DNA of 64,000 nt from contig DATETJ010000004.1 of the NCBI GenBank assembly GCA_035283685.1, positions 186,001 through 250,000 of the forward strand, written 5' to 3'. This DNA comes from Candidatus Bathyarchaeia archaeon. GTDB lineage: Archaea > Thermoproteota > Bathyarchaeia > Bathyarchaeales > Bathyarchaeaceae. The notes under the pieces were generated by a model that had not been told where the DNA came from, did not search any database, and saw only the letters and a list, made by a program, of their open reading frames with translations. Below, piece after piece: positions 3,419 through 61,560 of the stretch (the first letter of the stretch is position 1; each line of letters begins with the position of its first letter). Made by a program: the position numbers and the translations under genes.

Positions 3419-4501
3419 TCAGTGCTTGTGTTTAAAGTGCGGTATAACCTTCTCAGCAAAGAGTCTCGAAGTTTCTTTCAACTCGCTTGCAGAAACCTGG
3501 AAGTTTATCACGAAGTGCCGACAGCCAGCCTTTACATATTCGTCGATTTTCTCTATAGTGTCATCTGGCGTGCCGATGATGTAAGGCGACTTGTCCACAA
3601 CCTCGTCTGGCAACTTCTGCGCGGTTTCCATCCAAGCTTTGGCATGCTCAGGGAAAACCAGCTTGAAAGTCATCTCATAATCGTAGGTTGGCGGTTTGAA
3701 ACCCAGCTTCTCAATGATTTTCGGCCTAGAAAGCAAGAGCATCTTCGCCTGTGGAAGAACAGCTTTTCTCGTAGTTTCCTTATCCTTTCCTATAGCAACG
3801 TATGTGAAGTGGGCGGGTTCTATGGCTTCGGGATTACGCCCAAACTGCTTAGCCATAGACTTAATTTTCGCCAGATCTTCCGCGTATTCGCTCGCAGGTA
3901 GATTGGCTGGAAGCCATCCGTCACCGTATCTTGCCGCCATCTCCATTGTCCGAGGCGAACTGGCAGCTACGAAAATGGGCACTGTGGGTCTAAACTTGGT
4001 CTCAGACACGGGCACTGAAGGCTTGGGCTGAATGAAGGCTTTCTGCAGTTTGTAGTAGTTTCCATTGTAGTCAAAGAAGTCTTCACTCCAAAGTTTCCTT
4101 ATGATTTCAAGCGCCTCCTCCGTTCGAGCTATAGGCTTGTCGTAGGGTATGCAGTAGGGCACAAGGTTCATGGCTTCTCCTATGCCTATGCCCAGAATTG
4201 CCCTGCCGCCAGAAATAACGTCCAACGTGGCCACTTTTTGGGCTAACACTGCAGGATGATAACGGTACGTGTCGCTTACTCCAGTCGCCAACTTTATCCT
4301 CTTAGTATTGACAGCGAGAGCTGTGAGTGTGCTCCACGCTTCAAGCGCGTCCCATCTTCGAACTCCCGTCGCGACTATGTGGTCAGGTGTCCAGTATGAG
4401 TCAAAACCTACTTTTTCAGCCGACACAGCTACATCAAGTATTGTGCTCCACGGATAGTTGGGACCTTCAACTCCAAACATTATTTCGTCTTTTGAAACCA
4501 T
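3419..4501 (-). CDS. Luciferase-like (LLM class) flavin/F420-dependent oxidoreductase
   Basis: A TIM-barrel oxidoreductase of the bacterial-luciferase superfamily, the group that includes F420-dependent methylene-H4MPT reductase and F420-dependent dehydrogenases. Seen: an N-terminal GVEGPNYPW segment, the SGGRAILGIGIGE stretch and the ALEIIRKLW helix typical of the family. The open frame runs on upstream, but the ATG at 4501 lies 16 bases after the stop of the preceding gene with a GAGGCG ribosome site, giving about 360 residues, so it is preferred. Last gene of a three-gene operon with the DUF35 protein and thiolase, which suggests it reduces or oxidises an acyl-CoA-related substrate. Whether it uses F420 or FMN cannot be decided here. 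Confidence 0.85.
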   Translation of the reverse strand: MVSKDEIMFGVEGPNYPWSTILDVAVSAEKVGFDSYWTPDHIVATGVRRWDALEAWSTLTALAVNTKRIKLATGVSDTYRYHPAVLAQKVATLDVISGGRAILGIGIGEAMNLVPYCIPYDKPIARTEEALEIIRKLWSEDFFDYNGNYYKLQKAFIQPKPSVPVSETKFRPTVPIFVAASSPRTMEMAARYGDGWLPANLPASEYAEDLAKIKSMAKQFGRNPEAIEPAHFTYVAIGKDKETTRKAVLPQAKMLLLSRPKIIEKLGFKPPTYDYEMTFKLVFPEHAKAWMETAQKLPDEVVDKSPYIIGTPDDTIEKIDEYVKAGCRHFVINFQVSASELKETSRLFAEKVIPHFKHKH

Positions 4502-4517
4502 GCTTTGCGCCTCTTCG

Positions 4518-4946
4518 CTAGACTGCAGCCTTAAACTCATAGGCAATTTTGTCATGCGGCAGTTTGACAGGAGCAAGTTGAAGCCTAATTCCGGGCCTAA
4601 CTTTATCATCGCTCATGTCTTTGCTGAGCCTAGCTAATATTTTCAATCCTTCCTTAGACTCTGCAATGGCTAGGATGTAAGGAGTGTCGTCTTCAAAGCC
4701 TGTGGGAGCAAAATACGCTTTAGAATAAGTCAGCAAAGTCCACTCGTTGCTTATCTCCTTCCAGCTCATCTGGTCTATGGAAAGGCAGTTGCTGCAGTCC
4801 ATTCGGGGTGGAAAATACACTTTCTTGCAAACTCTGCACTGAGTTGCTTCGATTTTTCCTTTTTCAAGATGATTTACGAATTCCTTCACCTTGGTCTCGG
4901 CTGTGTAGTTGACTTTTCCAAATTTTTCGAAACCCACTGCTGTCAC
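4518..4946 (-). CDS. Zn-ribbon / OB-fold DUF35 acyl-CoA-binding protein
   Basis: A DUF35 protein: rubredoxin-like zinc ribbon followed by an OB fold. The ribbon is CRVCKKVYFPPRMDCSNC (two CxxC pairs). In archaea such proteins bridge thiolase to a partner enzyme and bind the CoA moiety, as in the thiolase-DUF35-HMG-CoA synthase complex. Here it overlaps the thiolase gene by 4 bases, so the two are very probably translationally coupled subunits. No HMG-CoA synthase is adjacent; the third operon member is an LLM oxidoreductase instead. Confidence 0.88.
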   Translation of the reverse strand: MTAVGFEKFGKVNYTAETKVKEFVNHLEKGKIEATQCRVCKKVYFPPRMDCSNCLSIDQMSWKEISNEWTLLTYSKAYFAPTGFEDDTPYILAIAESKEGLKILARLSKDMSDDKVRPGIRLQLAPVKLPHDKIAYEFKAAV

Positions 4947-6103
4947 CTGCTGAATATAATTACATTTCCGTAAAGACCTACACCACCAATATTATGGACG
5001 AGACCTGTTTCCGCGCCTTTAACCTGCAGTTTTCCAGCGTCGCCTCTAAGCTCCATCACAATTGTGCGCACCTGTGAACCTCCGGTAGCGCCGATCGGAT
5101 GACCTTTGCCAAGCAGTCCACCATCAATGTTGACTGGCATATCGCCATCAATGTAGGTTTGAGCCTCTTCAACTAGTCTGCCGCCTTCTCCGGGTTTGCA
5201 GAAGCCCAAGTTCTCATAAGCCATAATCTCAGCTGTAGTAAAACAGTCATGCACTTCAGCCACATCGATGCTTTTAGGCTCAACACCAGCCATTTTGTAA
5301 GCCTGCTTCCCAGCCTCAACAGCGCAGTTCAAACCAGTTAAACTTACCTTGTTAGCCAACGAAAGACTGTCACTTGCAGCGCCCAACCCGATGATATTGA
5401 CCGGCGTGTCCGTCATCTTCTTCGCCTTGTCGCCGTTAGCCAAAATGATACATGAGGCTCCGTCAGCGTTGGAGCAGCAATCGTAAAACTTCAATGGCGC
5501 AGCTATAGCCCTCGCTGTCAGGCATTCTTCAAGCGAGACTTCACGTTGAAATATGGCTTTTGGGTTGAGAGCCGAATATTTGCTGCTTTTGACCTTCACC
5601 TTTGCCATTTGCTCCTCAGTCATGCCATATTTCTGCATTCTGGCTCGTGTGAACAAGGCATATCCAGCCGGCATTGACAAGCCGAAAGGAGATTCCCACA
5701 TGATATCAGCGCCTCGACCCATGCGTTCCTGAACTTCAGTTGACGACAACTCTGACATTTTTTGGAATCCGATCACTGCGACCATGTCGTTTAGTCCAGA
5801 TTTGATCAAACCGTAAGCGGCTCGAATGCCAGTTGTACTTGAAGCGCACACCGCTTCAACATAAAAGGTGGGCTTAGGATTCAAGCCGAGATACTCAGCG
5901 ATGGCTCCTGCCGGCGACCTCTGCTTGTCGTATTCGGGAGCTGAACATATTATTGAGCCATCTATATCTTGAACCTGAAGATTCCCAGCATCGATTATGG
6001 CTTCTTTGAAGGCTTCAAAACAAAGTTCCTTGATGGATACGCCACAGGCCTTCGTGAACGAGGTCTGCCCCACTCCAACAACTGCAACGTCGCTCATGAT
6101 CAT
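4943..6103 (-). CDS. Thiolase family protein (SCP-x type acetyl-CoA acyltransferase)
   Basis: A thiolase-superfamily enzyme that condenses or cleaves acyl-CoAs. The nucleophile is Cys86 in VEAVCASSTTG; GKGHPIGATG supplies the catalytic histidine; the C-terminal motif is HNIGGVG, with His in place of the second Cys of classical thiolases, as in SCP-x/lipid-transfer type members. Length 386 is usual. Two ATG codons (6103 and 6097) are possible starts. First gene of an operon with the DUF35 protein and the LLM oxidoreductase. It might serve mevalonate synthesis or acyl-CoA breakdown; the absence of HMG-CoA synthase nearby leans towards the second, as an inference. Confidence 0.9.
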   Translation of the reverse strand: MIMSDVAVVGVGQTSFTKACGVSIKELCFEAFKEAIIDAGNLQVQDIDGSIICSAPEYDKQRSPAGAIAEYLGLNPKPTFYVEAVCASSTTGIRAAYGLIKSGLNDMVAVIGFQKMSELSSTEVQERMGRGADIMWESPFGLSMPAGYALFTRARMQKYGMTEEQMAKVKVKSSKYSALNPKAIFQREVSLEECLTARAIAAPLKFYDCCSNADGASCIILANGDKAKKMTDTPVNIIGLGAASDSLSLANKVSLTGLNCAVEAGKQAYKMAGVEPKSIDVAEVHDCFTTAEIMAYENLGFCKPGEGGRLVEEAQTYIDGDMPVNIDGGLLGKGHPIGATGGSQVRTIVMELRGDAGKLQVKGAETGLVHNIGGVGLYGNVIIFSR

Positions 6104-15390: not shown

Positions 15391-16920
15391 TCAAAAGAGT
15401 AGGCTTTTGTCCACCCAATCGGGATACCATTGGTAGTATGTTAACGGTTTGGCTTGCTTTAGACCTTTGAACGTTGCTTTTGCCAACGCGATGTTGCCTT
15501 TTCTGTCCTTGTACAGTTTGACCAACGCCTTAGCTTCGAGCGCCACTAGGAGTTGGTTGAGCTGATCGTCGTTAATGCCTGCGAAATGCTCTTTCATGTC
15601 TGCTCTGCTCATGTAGAGTCCAGGGTTAACTCTGTAGTCTTCTGCCAACACCTCTAGCAGTGTGGTCTCGTTCGCTTCTTTCATGACTGCTGGTTTCGTT
15701 GTTGAGATTGGCACACCGAGTTTGGGATGTATGTGACGATGTGGCATCTTCAGGTCTTCTGCCATGGCTCGAATTCCTTGCCGATAAAGAACCATACGCA
15801 TCACCTCACTTGTCCCCGCGCCAAGCTGATTCACTTTGGCGTCTCTCCTGAAAGTCTCAAGAGGATAGAACTGAGTCCAACCGTCACCGCCCATCACTTG
15901 CTGAGCCTCTGTCATCAATCGTTCATATGCTTCTGAAGCGTACAGCTTGGCTAAGCTAGCTTCGGCGGCGACATCTACCTTCATGTCCATGAGATAAGCT
16001 GCATAGTATGTGAGGAGACGTGCAGTCTTCAACTGAGCCAAAATATCGGCAATCTTGAACTGATTCACTTCAAACTCGATGGTCGGTTCACCAAATTGGA
16101 TGCGTCTCTGAGCATGCCCAACCGCGTATTTGATGGCTTCCCGCATAGGGCCAAGCATCCCAGCTGCGAACAGATTGCGCTCGAAGTTCAATCCGTCAAC
16201 AACAACCTTCCAGCCCTCCCCTTCTGCGCCTAATCGATTGGCAATAGGAACCGTCACCTCATCAAAGTCTAGGCAGCCATTCGGCAAGCCGACCCAACCG
16301 CCGAGTTCATTGATTTTCTCCACGGTGAAGCCTTTCGCTCCTTTCTCAACCATGAAGGCGCTTAAGTGAGCATATTTCGCCCGGTCTTCAGGGCGCTCGC
16401 TTGTTTTTGCGTAAACGCAGTAGATGTCCGCCGTGCCCGCGCTACTTATGAACCGTTTCTTCCCATTCATAACGTAAACGTCGCCTTCACGCACGGCAGT
16501 GGTTTCAATTCCTCCTGCGTCAGAACCTATGGACGGTTCGGTGATGCAGATGGCGCCTAGCTTGCCCTTGGCAATCTGAGGCAGCCAGCGTTGCTTCTGT
16601 TCCTCACTGCCAAAGTGCAGAATCTGCTCTGTGCCGCCAAACATTGTGACAGAATAAGCAGCTGTCAAAGCGGCGCAAATGCGGGATAGCTCCTCAGCGA
16701 TTATGCAGCACCCTGTTGTACCTGTTTCTGTGCCTCCATAGGCGGCTGGGATAGGTGCGCCAAACCAGCCTTTGACGGCAACTTCCTTTAAGAGACCAGC
16801 GGGAAATTCTTTGGTCCACACTATTTCTTCGCCTTTAGAAAGATTCTGATCTGCAAACGTCTTGACTTCCTCAGCCAGCTTTCTTTGTTTCTCATTCCAC
16901 CATGGATACATTTCTGTCAT
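15391..16920 (-). CDS. Acyl-CoA dehydrogenase, isovaleryl-CoA type active site, C-terminal extension
   Basis: FAD-dependent alpha,beta-dehydrogenation of an acyl-CoA. ICITEPSIGSDAGG (from residue 124) is the FAD/acyl signature; residues 357-373 are FRRDAKVNQLGAGTSE. The usual catalytic Glu of short/medium-chain enzymes is Ala368, but GLNFERNLFAAG provides Glu247 at the helix-G position used by isovaleryl-CoA and long-chain dehydrogenases. The core ends near residue 395; about 110 further residues (LLEVLAEDYRVNPGLYM onward) look like a small helical winged-helix-like extension not found in standard family members. It ends PLTYYQWYPDW. A branched-chain acyl-CoA role is inferred. No ETF genes are adjacent. 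Confidence 0.88.
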   Translation of the reverse strand: MTEMYPWWNEKQRKLAEEVKTFADQNLSKGEEIVWTKEFPAGLLKEVAVKGWFGAPIPAAYGGTETGTTGCCIIAEELSRICAALTAAYSVTMFGGTEQILHFGSEEQKQRWLPQIAKGKLGAICITEPSIGSDAGGIETTAVREGDVYVMNGKKRFISSAGTADIYCVYAKTSERPEDRAKYAHLSAFMVEKGAKGFTVEKINELGGWVGLPNGCLDFDEVTVPIANRLGAEGEGWKVVVDGLNFERNLFAAGMLGPMREAIKYAVGHAQRRIQFGEPTIEFEVNQFKIADILAQLKTARLLTYYAAYLMDMKVDVAAEASLAKLYASEAYERLMTEAQQVMGGDGWTQFYPLETFRRDAKVNQLGAGTSEVMRMVLYRQGIRAMAEDLKMPHRHIHPKLGVPISTTKPAVMKEANETTLLEVLAEDYRVNPGLYMSRADMKEHFAGINDDQLNQLLVALEAKALVKLYKDRKGNIALAKATFKGLKQAKPLTYYQWYPDWVDKSLLF

Positions 16921-17043
16921 GCCTTTGCACCTGCAGTGGGAGTATCAGAATTATGTTGAGCATACTTAAAACTTGCTTAGACTATGGCTTGTCGAAAACT
17001 CTTAATAACAAAGGAGTGGTTGACATCTGGCGGAAGGGTTAAT

Positions 17044-19098
17044 TTGAATCTTATCAAGAAAATTCAGAAACGCGACGGCAGAATCGCTGATTTTGACCAA
17101 GCCAAGATAGCTGAGGCTGTCTGGAAAGCAGCTAAGGCTGTCGGAGGCAACGATCGATCCCTAGCCGACACATTGGCTGCACAGGTTGTAGAGCGCTTGG
17201 AAAAACAGCTCAAGCCAGGTGAGTTTCCGACGGTTGAGCAGGTTCAGGATTTGGTTGAGATAACCCTTATCGAGAATGGGCATGCTCGTACTGCGAAAGC
17301 TTACATTTTGTACCGGCAGAAGCGAGCTGAGATTCGTCACGCCAAGACAATGCTTGGTGTTGTCGACGAATTGAAGCTGCCCCTGAACTCCATCCTAGTG
17401 CTTGAAAGGCGCTACTTGCAGAAGGATGAAAACGGGAAAGTCGTCGAATCCACAGGACAGATGTTTCGTCGAGTGTCCAAAGGTATAGCAGAAGTTGAAA
17501 AGCAGTATGGTAAGAGTGATTCTGAAACCGCGGCTTTGGAAAACGAGTTCCATGGCATGATGACAAGTTTCGAGTTCATTCCCAATTCGCCCACGCTTAT
17601 GAATACAGGCACGCAGTTCAGGCAGTTGAGCGCCTGTTTTGTTCTCCCTGTAGAAGATTCCATTGACAGCATTTTCAACACGCTCAAGGCAACCGCGCTT
17701 ATTCACAAGACTGGCGGCGGCACAGGTTTTGCGTTTTCAAGATTGAGACCAAAAGGCGACATGGTGAAGACCACTGGCGGCGTTGCCTCAGGGCCAATAT
17801 CGTTCGCCACAGTTTATGATACTGCAACTGATGTGGTTAAGCAGGGCGGGCGTCGACGCGGTGCCAACATGGGCATCCTACGCGTGGATCATCCCGACAT
17901 CATGGATTTTGTTGTAGCCAAAGAGAAGGAAGGCGTACTTCGCAACTTCAACATATCCGTGGCTTTAACAGACAAGTTCATGCATGCCGTGGAGAAAGAC
18001 GAGGACTTCGAATTAGTCAACCCGCGCAACGGCACAGTTGCGAAAAAGTTGAAGGCGAGAGTCATCTGGAACCTAATTGTCATGATGGCTTGGAAAAACG
18101 GCGAACCAGGAGTGATCTTCATTGACACAATCAATAGGTACAATCCCACGCCTAATGTGGGCGAAATCGAATCGACAAATCCGTGCGGCGAGCAACCGCT
18201 ACTACCATTCGAATCATGCAATCTAGGCAGCATTGACGTCAGCAAATTCGTCACTGAAGAAGGCAAAATGAGTTGGGATCAGCTCCGAGAGACCATCAGA
18301 AAGGCGGTTAGATTCCTAGACAACGTCATAGATGCCAACGTGTACGTGCAACCTGAAATCAAAGAAATCACCAAAGGCAATCGGAAGATCGGACTAGGCG
18401 TCATGGGTTTTGCTGACATGCTCATTAGAAGAGGCACCAAATACGACACAGAAGAAGGCTTGAAAGCCGGCGAGGAGCTCATGCGTTTCATCAATGACGA
18501 AGGACACAAGATGAGCGCTGAGTTGGCCGTTGAAAAAGGAAGTTTCCCAAACTTTCAAGGCAGCGTTTGGGAGAAGAAATCGAAGGCTATGCGCAACGCC
18601 ACAGTCACCACGGTTGCGCCAACAGGCACAATTAGCATTATCTCAGGCTGCTCACAAGGCATTGAACCCTTTTTTGCTATCGCCTACATACGTGATGTGG
18701 CGGACAGCCTCGGAAAAAGCCTAGTTGAAATTAATCCTTTGTTCGAGGATATAGCCTTGCGCGAAGGATTCTACAGCGAGGAATTGATGAGGAAGATTTC
18801 TAGGAAAACTTCAATTCAGGACGTTGATGAAGTTCCAGAAAACATACGCAAGGTTTTCGTAACGGCTCACGACATCAGCGCAGAATGGCACGTTAGAATG
18901 CAAGCAGCGTTTCAAAAACACACAGACAATGCAGTATCGAAGACAATCAACTTTCCAAACTCCGCAACGCCAAATGACATCGAGAAAGCGTATTGGCTCG
19001 CATACAAATCAGGCTGTAAGGGAATAACCGTCTACCGCCACGGCAGCAGAGAAATGCAAGTGTTACGGCCTGTGGAAAACGAAAACACTGGTACGTAG
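17044..19098 (+). CDS. nrdJ: Class II (adenosylcobalamin-dependent) ribonucleotide reductase, copy 1, lacking redox tail
   Basis: Reduces ribonucleotides to deoxyribonucleotides with B12 radical chemistry. ATP-cone at residues 1-95 (KRDGRIADFD), redox Cys198 in LSACFVLP, catalytic NPCGEQ (Asn379, Cys381, Glu383) and the second redox cysteine in ESCNLGS. An upstream ATG at 16984 is open, but a TTG at 17044 has GGAAGGG just before it and gives a protein that aligns without gaps to copy 2 from residue 1, so TTG is preferred. The protein ends at RPVENENTGT and has no C-terminal CxxC, which copy 2 and most class II enzymes use for re-reduction. It lies 91 bases before copy 2 on the same strand. 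Confidence 0.92.
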   Translation: MNLIKKIQKRDGRIADFDQAKIAEAVWKAAKAVGGNDRSLADTLAAQVVERLEKQLKPGEFPTVEQVQDLVEITLIENGHARTAKAYILYRQKRAEIRHAKTMLGVVDELKLPLNSILVLERRYLQKDENGKVVESTGQMFRRVSKGIAEVEKQYGKSDSETAALENEFHGMMTSFEFIPNSPTLMNTGTQFRQLSACFVLPVEDSIDSIFNTLKATALIHKTGGGTGFAFSRLRPKGDMVKTTGGVASGPISFATVYDTATDVVKQGGRRRGANMGILRVDHPDIMDFVVAKEKEGVLRNFNISVALTDKFMHAVEKDEDFELVNPRNGTVAKKLKARVIWNLIVMMAWKNGEPGVIFIDTINRYNPTPNVGEIESTNPCGEQPLLPFESCNLGSIDVSKFVTEEGKMSWDQLRETIRKAVRFLDNVIDANVYVQPEIKEITKGNRKIGLGVMGFADMLIRRGTKYDTEEGLKAGEELMRFINDEGHKMSAELAVEKGSFPNFQGSVWEKKSKAMRNATVTTVAPTGTISIISGCSQGIEPFFAIAYIRDVADSLGKSLVEINPLFEDIALREGFYSEELMRKISRKTSIQDVDEVPENIRKVFVTAHDISAEWHVRMQAAFQKHTDNAVSKTINFPNSATPNDIEKAYWLAYKSGCKGITVYRHGSREMQVLRPVENENTGT

Positions 19099-19189: not shown

Positions 19190-21274
19190 ATGAGCGCTGT
19201 CAAGAAAATTATGAAGAGAGACGGCAGAAAAGTTGACTTTGACTCTGACAAAATTGTGGAAGCCATTTGGAAGGCTGCACAGGCTGTCGGAAGCAAAGAC
19301 AGAACCGTTGCTGTTAAGCTCGCTGATCGGGTTGTTGAGAAACTCGAAAAGCAGCTTAAGCCAGATGAAGTTCCAAGCGTAGAGCAAGTTCAGGATTTGG
19401 TTGAGAAGACTCTGATGGAGAGCGGTCAAGCCAGCATTGCAAAGACGTATATTTTGTACCGTCAGAAACGCGCTGAGATAAGAAGAATGAAGCTGTTGCT
19501 TGGTGTAACAGATGAGTTGAAGCTGCCGCTTAACGCCATCCTAGTCTTAGAAAGACGTTATCTGCGCAAGGATGAAAAAGGACGCATAGCTGAATCGACA
19601 GCTCAAATGTTTAGACGCATAGCCAAGGCACTTGCAGCGGTAGAGAAACAATACGGCAAGACCGACAAGGAAATCGCCGGTTGGGAAGACGAGTTTTACC
19701 GCATAATGACAGAACAGCTATTTGTCCCGAACACGCCGACTTTAATCAACGCTGGCACGCGGTTTCCGCAGTTGAGCGCCTGCTTTGTACTGCCAGTTGA
19801 AGATTCAATCGAAGGAATATTCTCCTCGTTGAAAGCTGCTGCCATCATACACAAGACCAGCGGTGGAACAGGCTTCTCCTTTTCACGATTACGGCCAAAA
19901 GGCGACATTGTAAGAAGCACCGCGGGCACAGCTTCTGGACCGATTTCATTTGCCACGGTTTACGACACGGCAACAGAAGAGATGAAGAAAGGTGGAAAGC
20001 GACGCGGCGCCAACATGGGCATATTACGCGTCGACCATCCGGACATCATGGATTTCATAGTGGCTAAGGAGAGAGAAGGCGTTTTGCGCAACTTCAACAT
20101 CTCCGTGGGCGCGACCGACAAGTTTATGGAAGCAGTTGAGAAAGACGCGGACTTTGAGTTAATCAACCCCCGAAATGGCGAAGTCATAAAGAAGCTGAAA
20201 GCCCGAGCCATATGGAACCTAATCATTATGATGGCTTGGAAAAACGGTGAGCCCGGCGTTGTTTTCTTGGACACCGTGAACAAGCACAATCCGACTCCGC
20301 ATGTTGGGCAAATTGAGGCAACAAACCCATGCGGAGAACAGCCTCTCTTACCTTACGAATCCTGCAATTTGGGAAGCATCGATGTCAGTAAGTTCGTTAC
20401 CGCTGAAGGCAAAATGGATTGGAGCAACCTCCTTGAGACTGCGAAAGTCGCAGTGAGGTTCTTGGACAACGTAGTCGATGCCAACTGGTATGTCTTGCCT
20501 GAAATTGAAAAAATCACGAAGGGCAACAGGAAAATTGGTCTAGGCGTAATGGGCTTTGCAGACATGCTCATCAAAAGAGGCATCAAATATGACACAGAAG
20601 AAGGCTTGAAAGCCGGCGAAGAACTCATGAAGTTCATCAACGACGAAGCACACAAGATAAGCGCTGAGCTGGGGGAAGAGAAAGGTAGTTTTCCAAATTT
20701 TCACGGCAGCATATGGGAGAAGAACTGGAAGACCCGTCGCAACGCTACAGTAACCACCGTCGCGCCGACAGGCACAATTAGCATCATTGGCGGTTGTTCA
20801 CAAGGCATCGAGCCGCTTTTCGCCATCGCTTACGTGCGCGAGGTTGCTGAAACGCTTGGACGCAGCCTAGTCGAAGTCAACCCGTTGTTCGAAAGCGTTG
20901 CGCTAAAGGAAGGCTTCTACAGCGAGGAACTCGTTAAAGAAATCTCGAGACGCACCTCGATCCAAGATTTGAAAGAAATCCCTGAGAAATGGCGTCGCTT
21001 GTTTGTGACCGCTCATGACATTAGTGCCGAAATGCACGTGCGCATGCAAGCAGCTTTCCAAAAACACACTGACAACGCCGTGTCGAAAACCATTAATTTT
21101 CCGAATTGGGCAACGCCGAATGACGTTGAAAAAGCCTACACGCTGGCTTGGAAACTAGGATGCAAAGGAATAACGGTCTATCGCCACGGCAGCCGAGAAG
21201 TGCAAGTTTTGAGACCTATTGAAAGCGAGGGCGAAGTTGCCGACTTCAGCAGAGTCTGCCCCACATGCGTCTGA
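19190..21274 (+). CDS. nrdJ: Class II (adenosylcobalamin-dependent) ribonucleotide reductase, copy 2
   Basis: Complete class II enzyme of 694 residues: ATP-cone (1-95), Cys198 and Cys392 as the redox pair, NPCGEQ (Asn379, Cys381, Glu383) as catalytic triad, APTGTISIIGG phosphate loop, and a C-terminal CPTCV (Cys690, Cys693) that passes electrons from thioredoxin-like donors. ATG start with a strong GGAGG six-plus bases upstream. The neighbouring copy 1 is close in sequence over the whole length, so the pair arose by tandem duplication. Confidence 0.96.
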   Translation: MSAVKKIMKRDGRKVDFDSDKIVEAIWKAAQAVGSKDRTVAVKLADRVVEKLEKQLKPDEVPSVEQVQDLVEKTLMESGQASIAKTYILYRQKRAEIRRMKLLLGVTDELKLPLNAILVLERRYLRKDEKGRIAESTAQMFRRIAKALAAVEKQYGKTDKEIAGWEDEFYRIMTEQLFVPNTPTLINAGTRFPQLSACFVLPVEDSIEGIFSSLKAAAIIHKTSGGTGFSFSRLRPKGDIVRSTAGTASGPISFATVYDTATEEMKKGGKRRGANMGILRVDHPDIMDFIVAKEREGVLRNFNISVGATDKFMEAVEKDADFELINPRNGEVIKKLKARAIWNLIIMMAWKNGEPGVVFLDTVNKHNPTPHVGQIEATNPCGEQPLLPYESCNLGSIDVSKFVTAEGKMDWSNLLETAKVAVRFLDNVVDANWYVLPEIEKITKGNRKIGLGVMGFADMLIKRGIKYDTEEGLKAGEELMKFINDEAHKISAELGEEKGSFPNFHGSIWEKNWKTRRNATVTTVAPTGTISIIGGCSQGIEPLFAIAYVREVAETLGRSLVEVNPLFESVALKEGFYSEELVKEISRRTSIQDLKEIPEKWRRLFVTAHDISAEMHVRMQAAFQKHTDNAVSKTINFPNWATPNDVEKAYTLAWKLGCKGITVYRHGSREVQVLRPIESEGEVADFSRVCPTCV

Positions 21275-23762: not shown

Positions 23763-24059
23763 ATGAACCCATTAACTGTCATATATTGGACCCGGCTTCT
23801 GCTGGGCATCGTCGCTGCTTTACTGTCCACGCTGCTGGGAAGCATGACAATGGAATTCACTTTTTTGAACGGCATATCCATCGCGTTGCTTCTTTACATA
23901 GTCACGTACTACGTTTACAAGGCTATGTTTCTGGCGAAAGTTGAAAAGCCTTCGAAAATTTTCACAACCGGAGTTGGCGGGTACTTTCTCTCATGGCTGG
24001 TAATGTGGGCGCTGTTCTACACTTTACTGAACTACCCGCAACTGCAGCTACAGCCCTAA
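23763..24059 (+). CDS. Small three-helix membrane protein, weakly EMC6-like
   Basis: Three hydrophobic segments at about residues 8-28, 32-53 and 68-90, short polar ends. The opening WTRLLLGIVAALLS recalls the start of TM1 in EMC6/Rab5-interacting-type proteins, which have the same size and three-helix layout. The likeness is by eye and weak; the safe call is a hypothetical membrane protein. It ends 4 bases inside the convergent PhoU gene. Confidence 0.55.
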   Translation: MNPLTVIYWTRLLLGIVAALLSTLLGSMTMEFTFLNGISIALLLYIVTYYVYKAMFLAKVEKPSKIFTTGVGGYFLSWLVMWALFYTLLNYPQLQLQP

Positions 24060-25078
24060 CTGATCGAGGGTGTTAAGACACGGTTCATTGCATCGTCAGC
24101 TACAGCCACAGCGTAGCCTGCAATTCTACGTAGGTCGCGGGCAATTATACTCAACGTGACCGCTGTGTCCATGTCTTTCACTTTTTCCATGATGCTCTTC
24201 AACAAAGATTCCTCTTTGTCCCTAATCTCGCTCATCCTAGTCAATACTGCAACTGCTAACTTCACATCTTTCTTCATAAAGGCTGAGGCAGCATTCATCT
24301 GCATTTCAAAGGCAACATCTGACAACTGCGCAAAAGCTTTCAGAAGGTCTGACCCAACCTTTCGTTTAGCCCCCAATTTGAGAACATGTCCAGCAATCTG
24401 TGATGAGTGATAGACTAGGCGGCTTAAATCCCGAGCCACCAACGCAAAAGTGATGTTTTCTTGACAGTTCTTGACTCCAACTTTGTCGGCAACGTTGCGG
24501 CTTAAACTCGCCGAAGCTACCTGCCTAATCATCACGCGATAGTGCCGTTGAGCCTCACCGCCTCGTTCCTGCGCCTCTTTGGCTAAGGCTAAGTTCCAAC
24601 TGACGAGCGAGTTAATCGCGTCTTCCTGCAACTTCGAGGAGAAAGCTGATGTCTTCTCGATAAGCGACTCCATCGAAAACGTAGCCGGGTCGATTAACAC
24701 CTGAAAACTCAAGTGGTCAGCTTCTTCCTCAGCTACCTCCACGCCGGGCAACTGTGTTCGAAGTTGCTTCAGCCTTTTTTTCTGCTCGGCAGACATGATC
24801 TTCTTGGAGACGATATTGATGCGTCCGCTACCTTGAATGTAATAAGTGGCTATGCAGTATTCGAGTGCGCGCAGGTTCGGAAAGTCTTCTAGGGGCAATG
24901 TGACTTCTAAGGGCTTCTCAAGTCCAACGCCTATTGGGAATATTCTTAATGAGCCGTCGTCCTCTTCAGACACTGCGATTTGCTCGCCGCTCTTCAGCTT
25001 CCGTTTCTCAACCCATGGTTTGGGCAGGGACAGCGTGAAGCTGCCGCCTTTTATTTTCTGCAGTTTTCTGACTTCCAC
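24056..25078 (-). CDS. PhoU-domain regulator with N-terminal AbrB/SpoVT domain
   Basis: Residues 1-50 (KIKGGSFTLSLPKPWVEKRK then GEQIAVSEED) are an AbrB-type swapped-hairpin DNA-binding domain; the rest is helical with two PhoU-like halves (for example FALVARDLSRLVYHS and LSIIARDLRRIAGYA). Archaeal proteins of this layout are annotated as phosphate uptake regulators. No Pst transporter is adjacent. It diverges from the MoaD/AOR operon across a 126-base gap with back-to-back TATA-like sequences. Confidence 0.88.
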   Translation of the reverse strand: MEVRKLQKIKGGSFTLSLPKPWVEKRKLKSGEQIAVSEEDDGSLRIFPIGVGLEKPLEVTLPLEDFPNLRALEYCIATYYIQGSGRINIVSKKIMSAEQKKRLKQLRTQLPGVEVAEEEADHLSFQVLIDPATFSMESLIEKTSAFSSKLQEDAINSLVSWNLALAKEAQERGGEAQRHYRVMIRQVASASLSRNVADKVGVKNCQENITFALVARDLSRLVYHSSQIAGHVLKLGAKRKVGSDLLKAFAQLSDVAFEMQMNAASAFMKKDVKLAVAVLTRMSEIRDKEESLLKSIMEKVKDMDTAVTLSIIARDLRRIAGYAVAVADDAMNRVLTPSIS

Positions 25079-25128: not shown

Positions 25129-25204
25129 GGCTTGAAAATATTTTTTCTCCACAATAATTAAATCAGACGTTCACAACTGTATTGTTTCAGACTCGTGAAG
25201 GCTT

Positions 25205-25486
25205 ATGACTGCCCAAGTGCGAATTCTGCTTCACGCCATGTTCAAGGAAACAGCGGGCAAAGGCGAGTTTTTTCACGAGTTGGGTTCGGGTTTAACTCTT
25301 AAGGTGTTACTGGACGAACTCGCACGCAGATATGGCAAGGACTTCAAACAGATTTTGAACTCGAAAACTGGAATGATTGAGACCGACACTCTGGTTATGC
25401 TTAACGGTCAAAGCATGAGAAAACCTGATGTGCAGCTTAAAGATGGAGACGTGGTCATGATCACGGTGCCAATTGGTGGAGGCTAG
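25205..25486 (+). CDS. MoaD/ThiS-family ubiquitin-like sulfur carrier
   Basis: A beta-grasp protein of 93 residues that ends in VPIGGG, so the C-terminal glycines can be thiocarboxylated. Such proteins donate sulfur to molybdopterin/tungstopterin or act as SAMP modifiers. It is the first gene before the tungsten-enzyme gene, which suggests it supplies sulfur for the pterin of that enzyme. ATG start. AOR-linked MoaD genes are common in archaea and anaerobes. Confidence 0.88.
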   Translation: MTAQVRILLHAMFKETAGKGEFFHELGSGLTLKVLLDELARRYGKDFKQILNSKTGMIETDTLVMLNGQSMRKPDVQLKDGDVVMITVPIGGG

Positions 25487-25643: not shown

Positions 25644-27557
25644 TTGAAGAGAGAGGATCAGATCGGATTGGTCTGGAACAGAAAAATCGCGTACGTCAAC
25701 TTGTCAAATGGCAAGATTGTGCAGAAGCCGATTCCACGAGAGATGCGCACCTTGTATTTGGGCGGTCGCGGCATCGATATGTATCTTCTGTACAATCACT
25801 TGCAGCCTGAAACTGACCCGCTCAGTCCAGAGAACGTGTTGATGATTGGTACCGGATTGTTATGTGGCATTCCATGTCTCGGCTCTGGACGAGGCGACAT
25901 CGCGGCTAAATCGCCGTTAACCGGCGCGGTTGGAGACTCGAATGTGGGTGGCTTTTTCGCGCCTGAACTCAGGTTGGCAGGTTTTGATCATTTAATCATT
26001 TCTGGAAAAGCGGACAAGCCAGTTTACCTGTGGGTCAACGATGGCGAAATCACGGTTGAGGATGCTTCGCATTTGTGGGGACAAGACACGTTTGATGCTC
26101 AGACGACTATAAGGAAAGACAAGGATGACGATGAGATCAAGAGCATTGTGATAGGCGTAGCTGGAGAAAACCTTGTCAGATTTGCCAATGTGCGCACAGG
26201 CATGAAGAACTCGGCTGGCAGAACGGGTATGGGCGCTGTTATGGGTTCGAAAAACCTCAAGGGCATAGCTGTGAGAGGCACGACGAGCATAGAATACGCG
26301 CATCCAGATGAGCTGCTTGACTACTGCAAAGAAATGAACGACATGATAATTGGCACGCGTTGGGCTAAGGCGCAGTCGAAATGGGGCACTATGATAATTT
26401 ACAGCAACACCAACACCACGGGTTTAATTAGAACGAAGAATTTTCAGCTGAACAGGTTCGAAGAAGGGCAAGATCTGGAACCTGAGAACATAGATCGCTA
26501 CTCGTTTGGTACTTCAGGCTGTTACAGTTGCGTTGTGCATTGCAGGCACCGCTACACTTTGAAAGATAGTTCTGGTGAGACGATTTTTGGCGAAGGACCA
26601 GAGTACACGTCGCTTGGCGCGTTTGGAACCATGGTGAACTGCAAGAAAATGGACACGATTCTGAAAGCTAACCATCTCGTTAACAAGTATGGCATTGACA
26701 CATTGGAAACGGGTGGACTCATCGCTTGGGCTATGGAATTGTATGAGAAAGGCATACTCACGGAAGCACAGATTGATGGATTGAAGCTGGAGTGGGGCGA
26801 CGAAAACGTCGTTTACGAGTTGATACGGAAAATTTCCACCCGAGAAGGCTTTGGCAACGTTCTTGCAGACGGCTTTAAACCAGCCATAGCCAGAATCGGA
26901 AAAGGCTCTGAATACTACGCCATTCAAGTCAAGGGTATGAGCAACTTGCATTCGGATGAACGTCCGACGCCGAGTTTCGCTTTAGGCATAGCCACGTCTA
27001 CGCGTGGTTCAGATCACTTGCGTAGCCGTCCCGCCATCGACTTGTATGGTTTGCCTGAAGAGTTGCTTGAGGAAGTGTATGGAGGACCTGTTGCTTCTGA
27101 TTCCACTTCGTATGATGGCAAGCCGCGGATGATTTGGTGGCAAGAACGTCTCTATGCAGTAACCGACGCGATTGGCGTGTGCAAGTTCCAAACGGTTTTC
27201 TGCGCGGTTCACGCACCAAACTGGAATGAATACTCAAAGCTCATTCAGCTTGCCACTGGCATGGAGTTTTCAAAGGCCCAGTTGATGCAAATCGGCGAAA
27301 GAATCTACACGCTTGAACGCTTGTTCAACCTGCGGGAAGGCTTCACTCGGAAAGACGACTCGATTTCAGAACGTTACTTCAAAGAGCCGACGCCCCTCGG
27401 TTTTCCAACCGCTAAAGGCAAGACGATCGACAAAGAGCGGTTTGAGAAGATGCTTGACGAGTATTACGCGTTGCATAACTGGGATCGAAACGGCGTGCCC
27501 ACGAAAGAGGCTTTGGAGCAACTAGGGTTGGACAAAGAGCCGTCGCACAAGATTTGA
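25644..27557 (+). CDS. Tungsten aldehyde:ferredoxin oxidoreductase family enzyme, BamB-like candidate
   Basis: Bis-tungstopterin enzyme of the AOR superfamily, 637 residues. The [4Fe-4S] ligands are Cys293, Cys296, Cys300 (CYSCVVHC) and Cys513 (IGVCKF). AOR active-site counterparts are Glu320 (GEGPEY) and His458 (STRGSDHL). Cys333 (MVNCKK) lies where the tungsten-ligating cysteine of the benzoyl-CoA reductase subunit BamB is expected, though that cysteine also occurs in other branches. The family includes aldehyde oxidoreductases and BamB, and the motif FFAPELRLAG with VYLWVND is shared by both. The start is TTG at 25644 or another TTG near 25662. Followed directly by a ferredoxin gene, as in the BamBC arrangement. 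Substrate undecided. Confidence 0.9.
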   Translation: MKREDQIGLVWNRKIAYVNLSNGKIVQKPIPREMRTLYLGGRGIDMYLLYNHLQPETDPLSPENVLMIGTGLLCGIPCLGSGRGDIAAKSPLTGAVGDSNVGGFFAPELRLAGFDHLIISGKADKPVYLWVNDGEITVEDASHLWGQDTFDAQTTIRKDKDDDEIKSIVIGVAGENLVRFANVRTGMKNSAGRTGMGAVMGSKNLKGIAVRGTTSIEYAHPDELLDYCKEMNDMIIGTRWAKAQSKWGTMIIYSNTNTTGLIRTKNFQLNRFEEGQDLEPENIDRYSFGTSGCYSCVVHCRHRYTLKDSSGETIFGEGPEYTSLGAFGTMVNCKKMDTILKANHLVNKYGIDTLETGGLIAWAMELYEKGILTEAQIDGLKLEWGDENVVYELIRKISTREGFGNVLADGFKPAIARIGKGSEYYAIQVKGMSNLHSDERPTPSFALGIATSTRGSDHLRSRPAIDLYGLPEELLEEVYGGPVASDSTSYDGKPRMIWWQERLYAVTDAIGVCKFQTVFCAVHAPNWNEYSKLIQLATGMEFSKAQLMQIGERIYTLERLFNLREGFTRKDDSISERYFKEPTPLGFPTAKGKTIDKERFEKMLDEYYALHNWDRNGVPTKEALEQLGLDKEPSHKI

Positions 27558-27568
27558 AGAAAGGAGAG

Positions 27569-28063
27569 ATGACTGTGGACAAGATCTTGTTCATTGACCC
27601 AGAGAAATGCACTGGGTGCCGCCTCTGCGAAACAGCCTGCTCGTTGCATCATGAAAAAGTGGTTAATCCTGCGTTGGCGCGAATTCATGTTGCCAAGTGG
27701 GAAACCGCTGGTCTGTATATTCCTGTTGTCTGCGTGCAATGCGAATCGCCTATATGCCAAACCGTGTGTCCTGTGCGAGCAATAAGTCGAGATGAAAAAA
27801 CTGGAGCTGTCATAATCGACCCAGATGCCTGCGTTGGCTGTCGCCTCTGCGCTCTCTATTGTCCATTTGCAGGCGCCCAGATCGACTTCAAGAAGGGAAG
27901 AATTTTGAAATGCGATTTGTGCAGCGGTGAGCCTGTGTGCGCCAAGTTCTGCGACCCAAAAGCGTTGCAGTATGTTAAGGCGTCTACGGCTAACATGATG
28001 AAGCAGCGTGCAGCGGCTCAGAGATTTTCAGAACTCATGAAGAAAATGTTGGTTGCGCCTTAA
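27569..28063 (+). CDS. Ferredoxin-like electron-transfer subunit with four Fe-S motifs
   Basis: Four cysteine groups in order: CTGCRLCETAC, CVQCESPICQTVC, CVGCRLCALYC and CDLCSGEPVCAKFC, the layout of polyferredoxin subunits (DmsB/HycB-like) able to hold up to four [4Fe-4S] clusters. It would pass electrons to or from the AOR-family enzyme. The frame is open from a TTG overlapping the AOR stop; AAGGAG then stands 2 bases before ATG 27569 and 8 before GTG 27575, so either may be the real start. Its 3' end overlaps the convergent HdrD-like gene by 4 bases. Confidence 0.88.
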   Translation: MTVDKILFIDPEKCTGCRLCETACSLHHEKVVNPALARIHVAKWETAGLYIPVVCVQCESPICQTVCPVRAISRDEKTGAVIIDPDACVGCRLCALYCPFAGAQIDFKKGRILKCDLCSGEPVCAKFCDPKALQYVKASTANMMKQRAAAQRFSELMKKMLVAP

Positions 28064-29598
28064 GAAGTGGACAGATCGGCTATTTCCACTACGTCATAGA
28101 CTTTGATTCCCGGCGTTTTTCTGGTTGCTGCGTTGCGCAGGTTGATGTGGCATGTGGGGCAGGCAGTCGTGAGAGCTGATACGCCTAGGGGAACCGCGTC
28201 TTTGACGAGTCTTTCTGTGGCGCAGTTGTTGGCAACTGTGTTGTTGAAAGACCATAGTCCGCCCCCGGCTCCGCAGCATCGTGAGCGGGTTCGGTTCAGC
28301 GACATTTCTACAAAGTCTAGCTTGGGCACAGCGTTTAGAACGTTGCGTGGTGAGTTGTAGACGTTGCTGTGTCGTCCCAGCGAGCAGGGATCGTGATATG
28401 TGATTTTCCAGTTCAAATCGCGTGGGACGAGGTCTTTTTCTTTGATGAGATTCTCGACGTATTGTGTGGCATGCTGGACTTTGAAGGGCAGGCTTATGCC
28501 AAGTATTTCTGGGTACATTTTGGTAAACGTGTAGTAGCAGCCGGCACAAGTTGTGATCAGAGTCTCTGCCTTTGTTTGGCTTAGCCTTTCAACAAGTGTT
28601 GAGGCGTTTTTCTTTGCCTCGTTCCACAGTCCTGATGCGAATAGGACGTAGCCGCAGCATCCTTCTCTCTCGCCTAGATACGTGAACTCGACGTGTGCCT
28701 TGTTTAGAATGTTGCCCAACGCCTTTGCTGTGTTTGGAGTGCGAGTTGAAGCCACGCAGCCAGCCCAGTAGAGAACGGAAGCCTTCTGCGGAAAGACGCC
28801 TTTTTGCGGAAGTTGCTGTGTCCACGTAACGCGTTTGCTGGGCGGCATGCCGCTTGGGTCTCCAACCTCAAATATGTTCTTGGCTGTAGCTGCAAACAGG
28901 TCAGGCACCCCTTTTTTCTGAGCAATACGGCGACGCGTGTCCAATATGGCTTTTCTGACTTGCGTGCTTTCGAAGCAGGGCGCAAAGCATAGTCCGCAGA
29001 GGCTGCAAGAGTACAGGATGTCGATTGCCTTAGGGGAAGGTGACAACTCGCCGCTCGACAATGCACGAGCAATGATGGCTCTGCCTTTAGACGACCATGT
29101 TTCGACATTGTTGAAGGATGGGCTTACTGGGCAGTAGCCGCTGCACACTTTGCATGCGAGGCATTTCTGCGAAGGAAGATCCGAGAAGAATGAGTTCAGC
29201 GCGAGAGCATAGTTGCGAAATGAACCGTGTCCAGCCCTCTTGATTTCCTGTTCCAAGTCCGCGGTTTGAGGCTGTTTTTCGTTTAGGTTCAGAAGACCTT
29301 CAAGTTGAGGCGGGTCAGCATCGTCGATCAGAACCACGGCTTTTGACGGAGTTTGATCGAATCCACTTTTTCCTTCAGTTCTTTTGAAGACCAGAAAGCC
29401 TTCAACCTGAGCCAGCTCGCGAATTTCGTTGGCTTGCAGGCTAGAGCTGACTTTGACGACAGCGTCAATTCGTGGATACTGCTTCTGTCTAAAAAACTGT
29501 TCAAAAGAATACGCATACAGATCTTCAGGGTCTGTTAAAACGTTTGAGTCGCCCGCAATTCGCCGAAGGGTCTGAATGACGCTGCTCTTCAATGACAT
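28060..29598 (-). CDS. HdrD-like Fe-S oxidoreductase with degenerate FAD-oxidase N-terminus
   Basis: C-terminal two-thirds resemble HdrD/GlpC: ferredoxin clusters CLACKVCSGYCP (about residue 146) and CSLCGLCFAPC (about 198), then two CCG domains (GCCGYVLF with CAGCYY; RCCGAGGG with CPTCH). These bind the non-cubane or cubane clusters that handle thiols or electron transfer. The first 110 residues (VLTDPEDLYAYSFEQ, then DAVVKVSSSLQANEIRELA) look like the start of a GlcD-type FAD-binding domain that then stops short. ATG at 29598 (MSLKSS) preferred over GTG 29646. It faces the ferredoxin gene tail to tail, so it is a separate transcript but a plausible BamD-like partner. Confidence 0.85.
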   Translation of the reverse strand: MSLKSSVIQTLRRIAGDSNVLTDPEDLYAYSFEQFFRQKQYPRIDAVVKVSSSLQANEIRELAQVEGFLVFKRTEGKSGFDQTPSKAVVLIDDADPPQLEGLLNLNEKQPQTADLEQEIKRAGHGSFRNYALALNSFFSDLPSQKCLACKVCSGYCPVSPSFNNVETWSSKGRAIIARALSSGELSPSPKAIDILYSCSLCGLCFAPCFESTQVRKAILDTRRRIAQKKGVPDLFAATAKNIFEVGDPSGMPPSKRVTWTQQLPQKGVFPQKASVLYWAGCVASTRTPNTAKALGNILNKAHVEFTYLGEREGCCGYVLFASGLWNEAKKNASTLVERLSQTKAETLITTCAGCYYTFTKMYPEILGISLPFKVQHATQYVENLIKEKDLVPRDLNWKITYHDPCSLGRHSNVYNSPRNVLNAVPKLDFVEMSLNRTRSRCCGAGGGLWSFNNTVANNCATERLVKDAVPLGVSALTTACPTCHINLRNAATRKTPGIKVYDVVEIADLSTS

Positions 29599-29670
29599 GT
29601 TCTTTGCTCTGTGCGCCAATTGGAGTAAGAAAATAGGCTTGGGCACAGATTAACGCTTCGAAAACTCCGC

Positions 29671-30181: not shown

Positions 30182-31333
30182 ATGGCATTAAGTTGGTTGC
30201 CGAGAGATCATGAACTTAAGAACCATGCGTTGCACGGTGACACGCATTGGAGCAAACAAGCTCCTAGCATAATGTATGAGAAAAGACCTTTGACAGATCC
30301 AGAAGGTAAGCCGATTGAAGATTTGTTCGTTGCTTGGATCATATTGAACAATCCTCAGCAGTACAACTCATATACAACTGAGATGGTGAAAGGCGTCATA
30401 GCCGGCTTCGAAAACGCCTCACTTGACCGAAGCGTGGTCGCTGTTGTGTTCACAGGTGAAGGAGCCAACGCGTTCTGCACAGGCGGAAACACGAAGGAAT
30501 ACGCCGAATACTACAGCCAAAGACCCAACGAATACGGCGAATACATGGAGCTCTTCAACCACATGGTAGACTCCATACTCATGTGCAAGAAACCCGTCAT
30601 CAACCGAGTCAACGGCATGCGGGTCGCAGGGGGGCAGGAAATCGGCATGGCATGTGACATTTCTATTGCTTCTGATCTCGCAGTTTTTGGACAAGCTGGT
30701 CCGAGGCACGGGTCGTCTCCAGACGGTGGCTCCTCGGATTTCCTACCTTGGATGCTTAGCATGGAAGACGCTTTGTGGAACTGTGTTTCCTGCGAGTTGT
30801 GGAGCGCCTACAAAATGAAGCGGCTGGGCTTGATCAATAGGGCTGTTCCAGTAATCAATGATGAGGGCAAGTGGGTTCGTAACCCGTCCGTTGTCACAGA
30901 TCAATACATCGAAAACGGTGAAGTCGTTTACGGCGAAGTCAAGACCGGGGAGGAATATGACAAGGCCCAAGCTTACATCAAGGCAGCGAGAGAACAGAAC
31001 AAAATCAGCCTCGAACTACTTGACAAAGAAGTTAACAAAGTTGTCTGGTTGTTCGCCAACTTGTTCCCCGGTTGTGTGATAAAGGCAATTGACAGTGTGC
31101 GCGCTAAGAAGAAGTTCTTCTGGGACACAGCCAAAGATTACAACCGTCACTGGCTTGCGGCGAATATGAATTATGAAGCCTTCTTGGGTTTCAGTGCATT
31201 CAACACAAGGAAATTGACGGGCAAAGATACAATTGACTTCATCAAGTTCAGGCAGTTGATTGCAAGAGGCAAACTCGCGGAAGACGCCATGTACGACGAA
31301 GTCATGCCTAAACCCAAAGAACAGCAGAAATAG
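30182..31333 (+). CDS. bamA: 6-oxocyclohex-1-ene-1-carbonyl-CoA hydrolase (BamA/Oah)
   Basis: Crotonase-family enzyme that hydrates and opens the ring of 6-oxocyclohex-1-ene-1-carbonyl-CoA to 3-hydroxypimelyl-CoA, the hallmark step of anaerobic benzoyl-CoA degradation. Recognised by the long family-specific blocks FCTGGNTKEYAEYY (98-111), NRVNGMRVAGGQEIGMACD (141-159) and FGQAGPRHGS (169-178) and by the N-terminal YEKRPLTDP, all as in Thauera and Geobacter BamA; length 383 is full. The next gene, 31 bases on, is the dehydrogenase that makes its substrate. ATG start with AAAAGGA upstream. Substrate inferred from the family; no ring-reductase is proven here. Confidence 0.93.
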   Translation: MALSWLPRDHELKNHALHGDTHWSKQAPSIMYEKRPLTDPEGKPIEDLFVAWIILNNPQQYNSYTTEMVKGVIAGFENASLDRSVVAVVFTGEGANAFCTGGNTKEYAEYYSQRPNEYGEYMELFNHMVDSILMCKKPVINRVNGMRVAGGQEIGMACDISIASDLAVFGQAGPRHGSSPDGGSSDFLPWMLSMEDALWNCVSCELWSAYKMKRLGLINRAVPVINDEGKWVRNPSVVTDQYIENGEVVYGEVKTGEEYDKAQAYIKAAREQNKISLELLDKEVNKVVWLFANLFPGCVIKAIDSVRAKKKFFWDTAKDYNRHWLAANMNYEAFLGFSAFNTRKLTGKDTIDFIKFRQLIARGKLAEDAMYDEVMPKPKEQQK

Positions 31334-31364
31334 CGAAGATTCCAGAAAACAGAGGCGACGGAGC

Positions 31365-32471
31365 GTGAGCAAGATTCCCGAGAAGATACAGACTTGGCAG
31401 ATGAGGAGACCGTGGAGCAAAGACCCAAAAACAGGACAAGCAACTGAAGGACTGATTGAAAGAGCGGAGATTCCAGTTCCAGCTTTGCAGCCAAATGAGG
31501 TTCTTGTTGAAATCGCTGGCTGCGGCGTATGCCACACCGACCTCGGCTACTTCTACGACGGCGTGCCCACAGTTACCAAGCCTCCGCTCACGTTGGGACA
31601 TGAGATCAGCGGCACTGTGATAGCGGGTGACAGCCGACTCGTGGGCAAGGAAGTTATCGTTCCTGCGGTGATGCCCTGCAACAAATGTGACATATGCTCC
31701 TCTGGGCGAGGAAACCGCTGTCTAGCTCAGAAAATGCCGGGAAACAGCCTGGGCGTTTACGGAGGCTTTTCCAGCCACGTTCCCGTGCCTTCCGAGGATT
31801 TGTGCGTGGTTGGCAACCGAGGCGGCTTTCAACTAGCTGAGTTAGCGGTGATCGCGGATGCTGTAACTACGCCTTATCAAGCCTGTGTGAGAGCTGGGCT
31901 GAAGAAGAATGATAATGTGGTTGTGGTTGGTGTCACCGGCGGCGTTGGCAGCTACGTGGCTCAGATGGCTAAGGCTTTTGGCGCCAAGACAGTGGTGGGC
32001 ATTGCTCGCGATCAAGAGAAACTCGAGCGTTCGTTGAAGTACGGCTCCGATTACATGATCAACTCTAGTGGCAAAGATGACAATGCTATTCGCAATGAGT
32101 TCAAAGAACTGTGCAAGGCGCATGGACTTCCCAACTACGCTTGGATAATCTTTGAGGTTACAGGAACAGGTGCAGGGCAGTCCATTGCATTGAACCTGTT
32201 GTCGTTTGTGGGCAAATTGGTCGTCATAGGCTTTGGCATGCAAAAAAATGAGTTCAACCTGTCCAGACTGATGGCGTTCGACGCCGATATCGTAGGTACG
32301 TGGGGCTGTCTCCCCAAGTACTACTCCAAAGTGCTTGAAATGGTGCTAAACGAAACCATCAAGATACGTCCATTCACTGAAACTCGACCCATGAGCAGGA
32401 TCAGTGAAGTATTCAGTGAAGCACACACAACAAGAATGATGAAAAGAGTAGTCTTAACGCCAGATTTCTAA
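31365..32471 (+). CDS. had: 6-hydroxycyclohex-1-ene-1-carbonyl-CoA dehydrogenase (Had/BamQ type)
   Basis: Zinc-dependent medium-chain alcohol dehydrogenase that oxidises 6-hydroxycyclohex-1-ene-1-carbonyl-CoA to the 6-oxo compound used by BamA. Catalytic zinc Cys56 (CGVCHTDL) and GHE (His79, Glu80); structural zinc Cys105, Cys108, Cys111, Cys119; nucleotide-binding VGVTGGVGSY. The DGVPTVTKPPLTLGHEISG region is a close match to bacterial Had. The GTG at 31365 gives 368 residues, as expected; the frame extends upstream into the end of BamA but that part is not protein-like. Adjacent BamA supports the specific call over a generic alcohol dehydrogenase. Confidence 0.9.
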   Translation: MSKIPEKIQTWQMRRPWSKDPKTGQATEGLIERAEIPVPALQPNEVLVEIAGCGVCHTDLGYFYDGVPTVTKPPLTLGHEISGTVIAGDSRLVGKEVIVPAVMPCNKCDICSSGRGNRCLAQKMPGNSLGVYGGFSSHVPVPSEDLCVVGNRGGFQLAELAVIADAVTTPYQACVRAGLKKNDNVVVVGVTGGVGSYVAQMAKAFGAKTVVGIARDQEKLERSLKYGSDYMINSSGKDDNAIRNEFKELCKAHGLPNYAWIIFEVTGTGAGQSIALNLLSFVGKLVVIGFGMQKNEFNLSRLMAFDADIVGTWGCLPKYYSKVLEMVLNETIKIRPFTETRPMSRISEVFSEAHTTRMMKRVVLTPDF

Positions 32472-60138: not shown

Positions 60139-60156
60139 GCTTTCTCACCGTGAGTA

Positions 60157-61128: not shown

Positions 61129-61143
61129 CGAGGTTAGTTTCAG

Positions 61144-61548: not shown

Positions 61549-61560
61549 TTGTCGCTCTCC

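Follow-up and report, generated by a model that had tools for sequence, protein, structure and literature searches.

A BamA–Had gene pair and a probable benzoyl-CoA pathway in a Bathyarchaeia genome

Two adjacent genes on an archaeal contig raise the question of whether their host breaks down aromatic compounds anaerobically, by way of benzoyl-coenzyme A (benzoyl-CoA). They lie in a stretch of 64,000 nucleotides (the window; C4:186001-250000 of the Candidatus Bathyarchaeia archaeon genome GCA_035283685.1, contig DATETJ010000004.1), and an earlier note on this DNA described them as intact, adjacent genes for the ring-opening hydrolase BamA (also Oah) and the dehydrogenase Had. We consider it very likely that the pair, as bamA and had, belongs to a complete upper benzoyl-CoA pathway of the Thauera/Azoarcus type. 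As the ring-opening pair and other predicted enzymes of the pathway occur in the same genome, the organism can probably degrade aromatic compounds anaerobically.

The ring-opening pair and its host

Both proteins pass the cut-offs of their equivalog families (Table 1), which bears out the description of an intact pair. BamA scores 532.3 bits against TIGR03200 (cut-off 464.45) over model positions 1-360 of 360, and the second-best family reaches only 111 bits. Among 80 BamA proteins from outside the Bathyarchaeia, 118 positions are at least 98% identical; 117 of these near-invariant positions are kept in the window protein, the sole exception being C to N at 141. Twelve BamA sequences, the window protein included, formed one clade (100/100) apart from other crotonases, so that the phylogenetic check proposed in the earlier note places it within BamA and not among generic enoyl-CoA hydratases. 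No close solved structure was found in the PDB comparison, in which MenB was nearest, and the plasmid search yielded generic hydratases only and no close relatives. Judged by its sequence, the reading frame is a full-length BamA/Oah.

Had scores 469.8 bits against TIGR03201 (cut-off 338.65). The closest solved structures are 7QUL (322 bits) and 7QUY (320 bits), followed by an entry at 95 bits; the nearest is the Thauera Had. The family motifs quoted in the earlier note are present. As listed from TTG 31260, the longest reading frame would overlap bamA by 74 bases; homology of the N-terminus to relatives (IPEKIQTWQM..) points instead to GTG 31365, preceded by ACGGAGC, and the gene probably starts there, ~100 bases downstream of the longest frame's start. 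The cofactor site differs from that of most Had proteins: the NAD-type acidic residue after the second Rossmann strand, found in 7QUL and most relatives, is absent, and the window protein reads GIARDQEKL, with Ala-Arg (GIAR) where most Had have Asp (GID). The GIAR form is shared by most Bathyarchaeia Had and by some from Thermoplasmata, Chloroflexota and Desulfarculaceae; Had of genomes G485 and G487 keep Asp, so both forms are present within the order, and the two are intermixed inside the Had tree. The change does not exclude membership of the Had family. In the dehydrogenase superfamily, Ala-Arg in place of Asp suggests NADP rather than NAD, which suggests that the window Had and most Bathyarchaeia Had would use NADP; the motif looks new for Had in the Bathyarchaeia. 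In genome G059, a different alcohol dehydrogenase (L167:4629-5642; 31% identical to Had, 224 bits against TIGR03201 and thus below the cut-off) lies between a PhoU-domain gene and dch.

Could the pair be bacterial contamination of an archaeal assembly? The source genome (2.28 Mb, 12 contigs, completeness 98.1%) has a contamination estimate of 3.63%, and among the matches listed most named relatives are bacterial. Against this, the window contig also encodes archaeal LeuS, AlaS, EF-1 alpha and a tetraether lipid synthase 6-21 kb from bamA and had, whose GC content and third-codon-position GC content are near the values of these archaeal neighbours. A set comprising an aldehyde:ferredoxin oxidoreductase (AOR), a ferredoxin, an HdrD-like protein, BamA and Had is common to five other genomes of the order, and the reductase genes bzdNOPQ, described below, share contig C9 with the 16S rRNA gene. 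That gene (C9:515352-516850) matches the target of MCG493, a probe for Bathyarchaeia, exactly (probe sequence from PMC10477458). The host is an archaeon of the class Bathyarchaeia, and we reject contamination, which on these grounds is very unlikely. Since the reductase lies on the 16S contig, much of the binning doubt that attaches to such claims is removed, and a full upper benzoyl-CoA pathway can be placed in a Bathyarchaeia genome that is almost complete (98%).

Reductase, remaining enzymes and the proposed pathway

The genes bzdN, bzdO, bzdP and bzdQ lie in this order at C9:569-573 kb, and the cluster extends to C9:574 kb with a gene for a 94-residue ferredoxin downstream of bzdQ and then a BzdV homologue in an open frame of 851 codons. 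BzdO scores 557.8 bits (cut-off 448.6), and the subunit in the P position, a second activase subunit, was assigned by activase family and gene order only. Four subunits N, O, P and Q with two different activase subunits are thus present, as is characteristic of class I reductases of the bzd type, and the genome is predicted to encode such an ATP-dependent benzoyl-CoA reductase. The earlier note had left the reductase as class I or II; the former part of that expectation stands.

Class II came into consideration since AOR has the same fold as BamB and lies in a suggestive gene neighbourhood: together with the ferredoxin gene, the AOR gene beside bamA might represent the ATP-independent reductase BamBC. 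The window AOR does score 262 bits against the BamB structure 4Z3W, but it matches Pyrococcus furiosus AOR (1AOR) better, at 387 bits, whereas a true BamB, encoded at a Desulfobacterales locus, scores 1188 bits against 4Z3W and shares only 30% identity with the window AOR. The genome, moreover, already has a class I reductase. This comparison covered the window AOR, one of five AFOR proteins of the genome. We reject the window AOR as BamB and consider a BamBC reductase encoded beside bamA very improbable; the reductase would therefore be the ATP-dependent class I enzyme.

For the hydration step, one of the genome's three other crotonases, encoded on contig C8, is the Dch candidate: it groups in the tree with hydratases of bcr, bam and bzd clusters, and the remaining two group apart from it with beta-oxidation-type hydratases. 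Close to the end of C9 is a group of genes for a thiolase, a hydratase, a 3-hydroxyacyl-CoA dehydrogenase and a CoA ligase. The proposed route would begin with reduction of benzoyl-CoA to the 1,5-dienoyl-CoA by BzdNOPQ at the expense of ATP and reduced ferredoxin, with BzdV and its ferredoxin recharging the reductant. Dch would hydrate the dienoyl-CoA, Had would oxidize the 6-hydroxy to the 6-oxo compound, and BamA would add water and open the ring, giving 3-hydroxypimelyl-CoA for beta-oxidation. The enzyme families are those found in the genome; catalytic steps, substrate range and direction of flow are presumed from what is known of these families.

Several observations weigh against this reconstruction. 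BzdN, at 450.1 bits, falls 3.7 bits under its cut-off of 453.8, and BzdQ (380.2 bits) only equals its own (380.2). The Dch candidate is unlinked in this genome, TIGR03189 is not among its best 25 families, and its homologue in G118 scores 159.8 against the TIGR03189 cut-off of 292.5. The C9 CoA ligase has generic acyl-CoA ligase families only among its best 25, and two acyl-CoA dehydrogenases that were scanned both fall under the glutaryl-CoA dehydrogenase cut-off.

A rival reading is that the enzymes serve another cyclic acyl-CoA, for example from alicyclic acids, or run reductively or fermentatively, benzoate catabolism not being their main role. No dedicated benzoate-CoA ligase was recognized among CoA ligases found by general family only, of which the C9 one was scanned in detail, and acyl-CoA dehydrogenase-like proteins show sub-cut-off similarity to cyclohexane-carbonyl-CoA dehydrogenase; both would suit this alternative. 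A class I reductase, however, spends ATP, as is consistent with an aromatic acyl-CoA being attacked reductively, and bamA, had, dch and bzdNOPQ are linked in relatives and co-occur. We regard the alternative as improbable and retain the benzoyl-CoA pathway. The search of the genome for other ring-degradation genes, as the earlier note proposed, thus returned the class I reductase, the Dch candidate, beta-oxidation genes and a CoA ligase of generic family; far from every such gene being missing, the rest of the upper pathway appears to be encoded. Together with the placement of BamA in its tree, this supports the reading of anaerobic aromatic or alicyclic acid degradation.

Contig C11 carries a second pair of HGD-D proteins (L051:8895-11239) that is closer to the 2-hydroxyacyl-CoA dehydratase and double-cubane families and adjoins a dehydrogenase-like NAD protein and an acyl-CoA dehydrogenase. 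It is possibly a 2-hydroxyacyl-CoA dehydratase; in G118, G301 and G485, relatives of the pair lie close to the benzoyl-CoA cluster.

Gene cluster, distribution and an alternative hydrolase

Table 1. Window genes assigned to the pathway or to its ancestral cluster (positions in the window).
Feature	Position	Strand	Basis
BamA/Oah	30182..31333	+	383 aa, intact; TIGR03200, conserved residues, tree
Had	31365..32471 (longest reading frame from TTG 31260)	+	TIGR03201; 7QUL/7QUY best PDB matches
Tungsten AOR (AOR family), not BamB	25644..27557	+	Pfam AFOR_N/C
Polyferredoxin (4Fe-4S), AOR partner	27554..28063	+	Pfam Fer4_11; linked ferredoxin in relatives
CCG-domain/4Fe-4S oxidoreductase (HdrD/GlcF-like C-terminal part)	28060..29646	-	Pfam CCG, Fer4_8; linked homologues 46-57% identical
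MoaD-like small protein, conserved cluster member	25199..25483	+	41% identical to G301 cluster MoaD
AbrB/PhoU-domain protein, possibly a regulator; conserved in the cluster	24056..25078	-	PhoU; 59% identical to G301 cluster protein
Thiolase-like, same ancestral cluster	4943..6103	-	72% identical to G301 cluster thiolase
Small protein linked to thiolase	4518..4946	-	48% identical to G301 cluster protein
F420-dependent LLM-class oxidoreductase, same ancestral cluster	3419..4609	-	65% identical to G301 cluster protein
Acyl-CoA dehydrogenase-like, possible lower-pathway enzyme	15391..16920	-	PF00441 match C4:201778-202221; below all equivalog cut-offs

The PhoU-domain, MoaD-like, AOR, ferredoxin and CCG-domain genes accompany bamA, wholly or largely, in G118, G106, G243, G485 and G487 (the G301 cluster MoaD scores 44.3 bits against TIGR01687 moaD_arch, cut-off 49.5). 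The AOR adjoins BamA or its replacement across the order, nine related clusters carrying a 74-78% identical AOR. G118 and G485 each have a single block that also holds had, dch, bzdNOPQ, bzdV and beta-oxidation genes, and G487 has a contiguous block from AOR to BzdQ over the extent covered. In the window the AOR arm is retained beside bamA, and the thiolase and LLM genes of the ancestral cluster lie ~20 kb away. The gene orders indicate that the pathway genes of the window genome derive from an ancestral cluster, contiguous in relatives and here split over at least three contigs. The AOR may supply reduced ferredoxin or oxidize aromatic aldehydes.

BamA passes the cut-off in 4 of the 398 genomes of the phylum sample and in 6 of the 163 genomes of the order, where two more have fragments. 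BzdO occurs in 19 of the 163, including all eight BamA genomes (two with partial BamA; Fisher p = 7e-9, a value that overstates independence because the genomes are related). Within this one order the pathway thus has a patchy distribution, and it is linked to the AOR-ferredoxin-HdrD module. Two small genomes of the window genome's family, G411 (L140) and G412 (L141), carry a different type of BzdO, which scores 672 and 670 bits, is 58-59% identical to that of the window genome and groups outside the Thermoproteota BzdO.

Seven BzdO genomes of the order encode a different crotonase of ~326 residues that scores ~143 bits against TIGR03200; six lack BamA, and the seventh, G409, carries a fragment of BamA at the edge of a contig. 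In G301 (L165:10585-11565) this crotonase is encoded between had and dch, in the BamA slot. All 14 full-length members carry a C-terminal CxxC...CxxC-type ribbon (23 bits against Pfam Zn_Ribbon_1, cut-off 25), and in the tree they join BamA to the exclusion of MenB and the hydratases (97/95), on long branches. Within the order the crotonase is associated with BzdO (Fisher p = 2e-5); the two also occur together outside it, in G076, G228 and G109. Besides these three and G301, the carriers of the crotonase include G059, G276, G410, G416, G486 and G488, among others. The zinc-ribbon crotonase is a candidate alternative ring hydrolase, and its presence in the BamA slot of related genomes looks new. 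We tentatively propose, as a possibility that falls just short of an even chance, that it replaces BamA as a second ring-opening hydrolase in many reductase-bearing Bathyarchaeia, the window organism being the canonical variant, and that Had of the window and most relatives may use NADP; if true, one pathway would have two alternative ring-opening enzymes. In G170 and G182 (L022, L025), where BzdO does not pass the cut-off, the zinc-ribbon crotonase adjoins a 56% identical AOR, and in G170 a distant HGD-D protein lies on the same contig.

The origin of the genes was addressed with quick trees of BamA, Had and BzdO, with Shimodaira–Hasegawa-like (SH-aLRT) support only. Among 86 BamA, the six from Bathyarchaeia form one group (99). 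Three Thermoplasmata sequences and a bin with no label but 'bacterium' join it (95), all nested within bacterial diversity; another Thermoplasmata group is placed elsewhere. The Had tree gives a similar picture, with archaeal Had inside bacterial diversity next to Thermoplasmata, and the BzdO of Thermoproteota fall into a group of their own (99), the divergent copies of G411 and G412 excepted. The trees fit one or more old transfers from bacteria, after which the genes were inherited or exchanged among members of the order, but do not prove the direction of transfer. The earlier suggestion of transfer is compatible with these placements; a recent event is not, because the genes do not stand out in base composition and bamA is shared by five relatives from another family of the order.

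Elsewhere in the window are two adjacent B12-dependent ribonucleotide reductase genes (16984-19098 and 19190-21274), a methylmalonyl-CoA mutase cluster (59602-63243: large part of the mutase, B12-binding subunit, MeaB and cobalamin adenosyltransferase) and a gene (13805-15367) whose archaeal product has a dockerin domain together with BNR repeats and CARDB.

Comparison with known systems

The earlier note held that the archaeal pathway is well established only in a few lineages such as Ferroglobus. That view is out of date, because bins of Bathyarchaeota, Thermoplasmata and Hermodarchaeota have already been reported to carry such genes (PMC6472368; PMC8163825). Dong et al. 2019 (PMC6472368) describe class I bcr in Bathyarchaeota and Thermoplasmata bins and also identified oah, dch and had; gene order, subtype and distribution within the Bathyarchaeia do not appear in the portions of that text considered here. 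Zhang et al. 2021 (PMC8163825) assign the Bcr, Dch, Had and Oah steps to Hermodarchaeota bins and infer transfer; the likeness to our genome is one of description, not sequence, and theirs is an Asgard lineage whose own Bcr the paper relates to Chloroflexi. Given these earlier Bcr-Dch-Had-Oah sets, the kind of finding is already known, and the present genome is a well-anchored new example. Ferroglobus placidus shares an archaeal class I reductase pathway at the pathway level (PMC6472368) but is an Fe(III)-respiring hyperthermophile. Among Bathyarchaeia, the bcr set of Bathyarchaeum tardum is incomplete and benzoate inhibits the organism (PMC10477458), and a 2025 review (PMC12694404) describes the lignin-degrading Ca. 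B. ligniniphilus as having no canonical aromatic catabolism genes; pathway-bearing lineages offer a concrete comparison to the latter.

Also close is the bzd pathway of Azoarcus/Aromatoleum (BzdNOPQ-BzdW-BzdX-BzdY, BzdM, BzdV), which has the same reductase subtype and the same set of functions, with a ferredoxin and a BzdV-like protein adjoining bzdQ. Identity to Aromatoleum loci is 64-65% for BamA, 56-57% for Had and 53-54% for BzdO. Unlike in those bacteria, the host here is archaeal and the genes are spread over contigs, AOR-ferredoxin-HdrD, MoaD and PhoU-domain genes accompany the pathway, and Had carries Ala-Arg instead of Asp.
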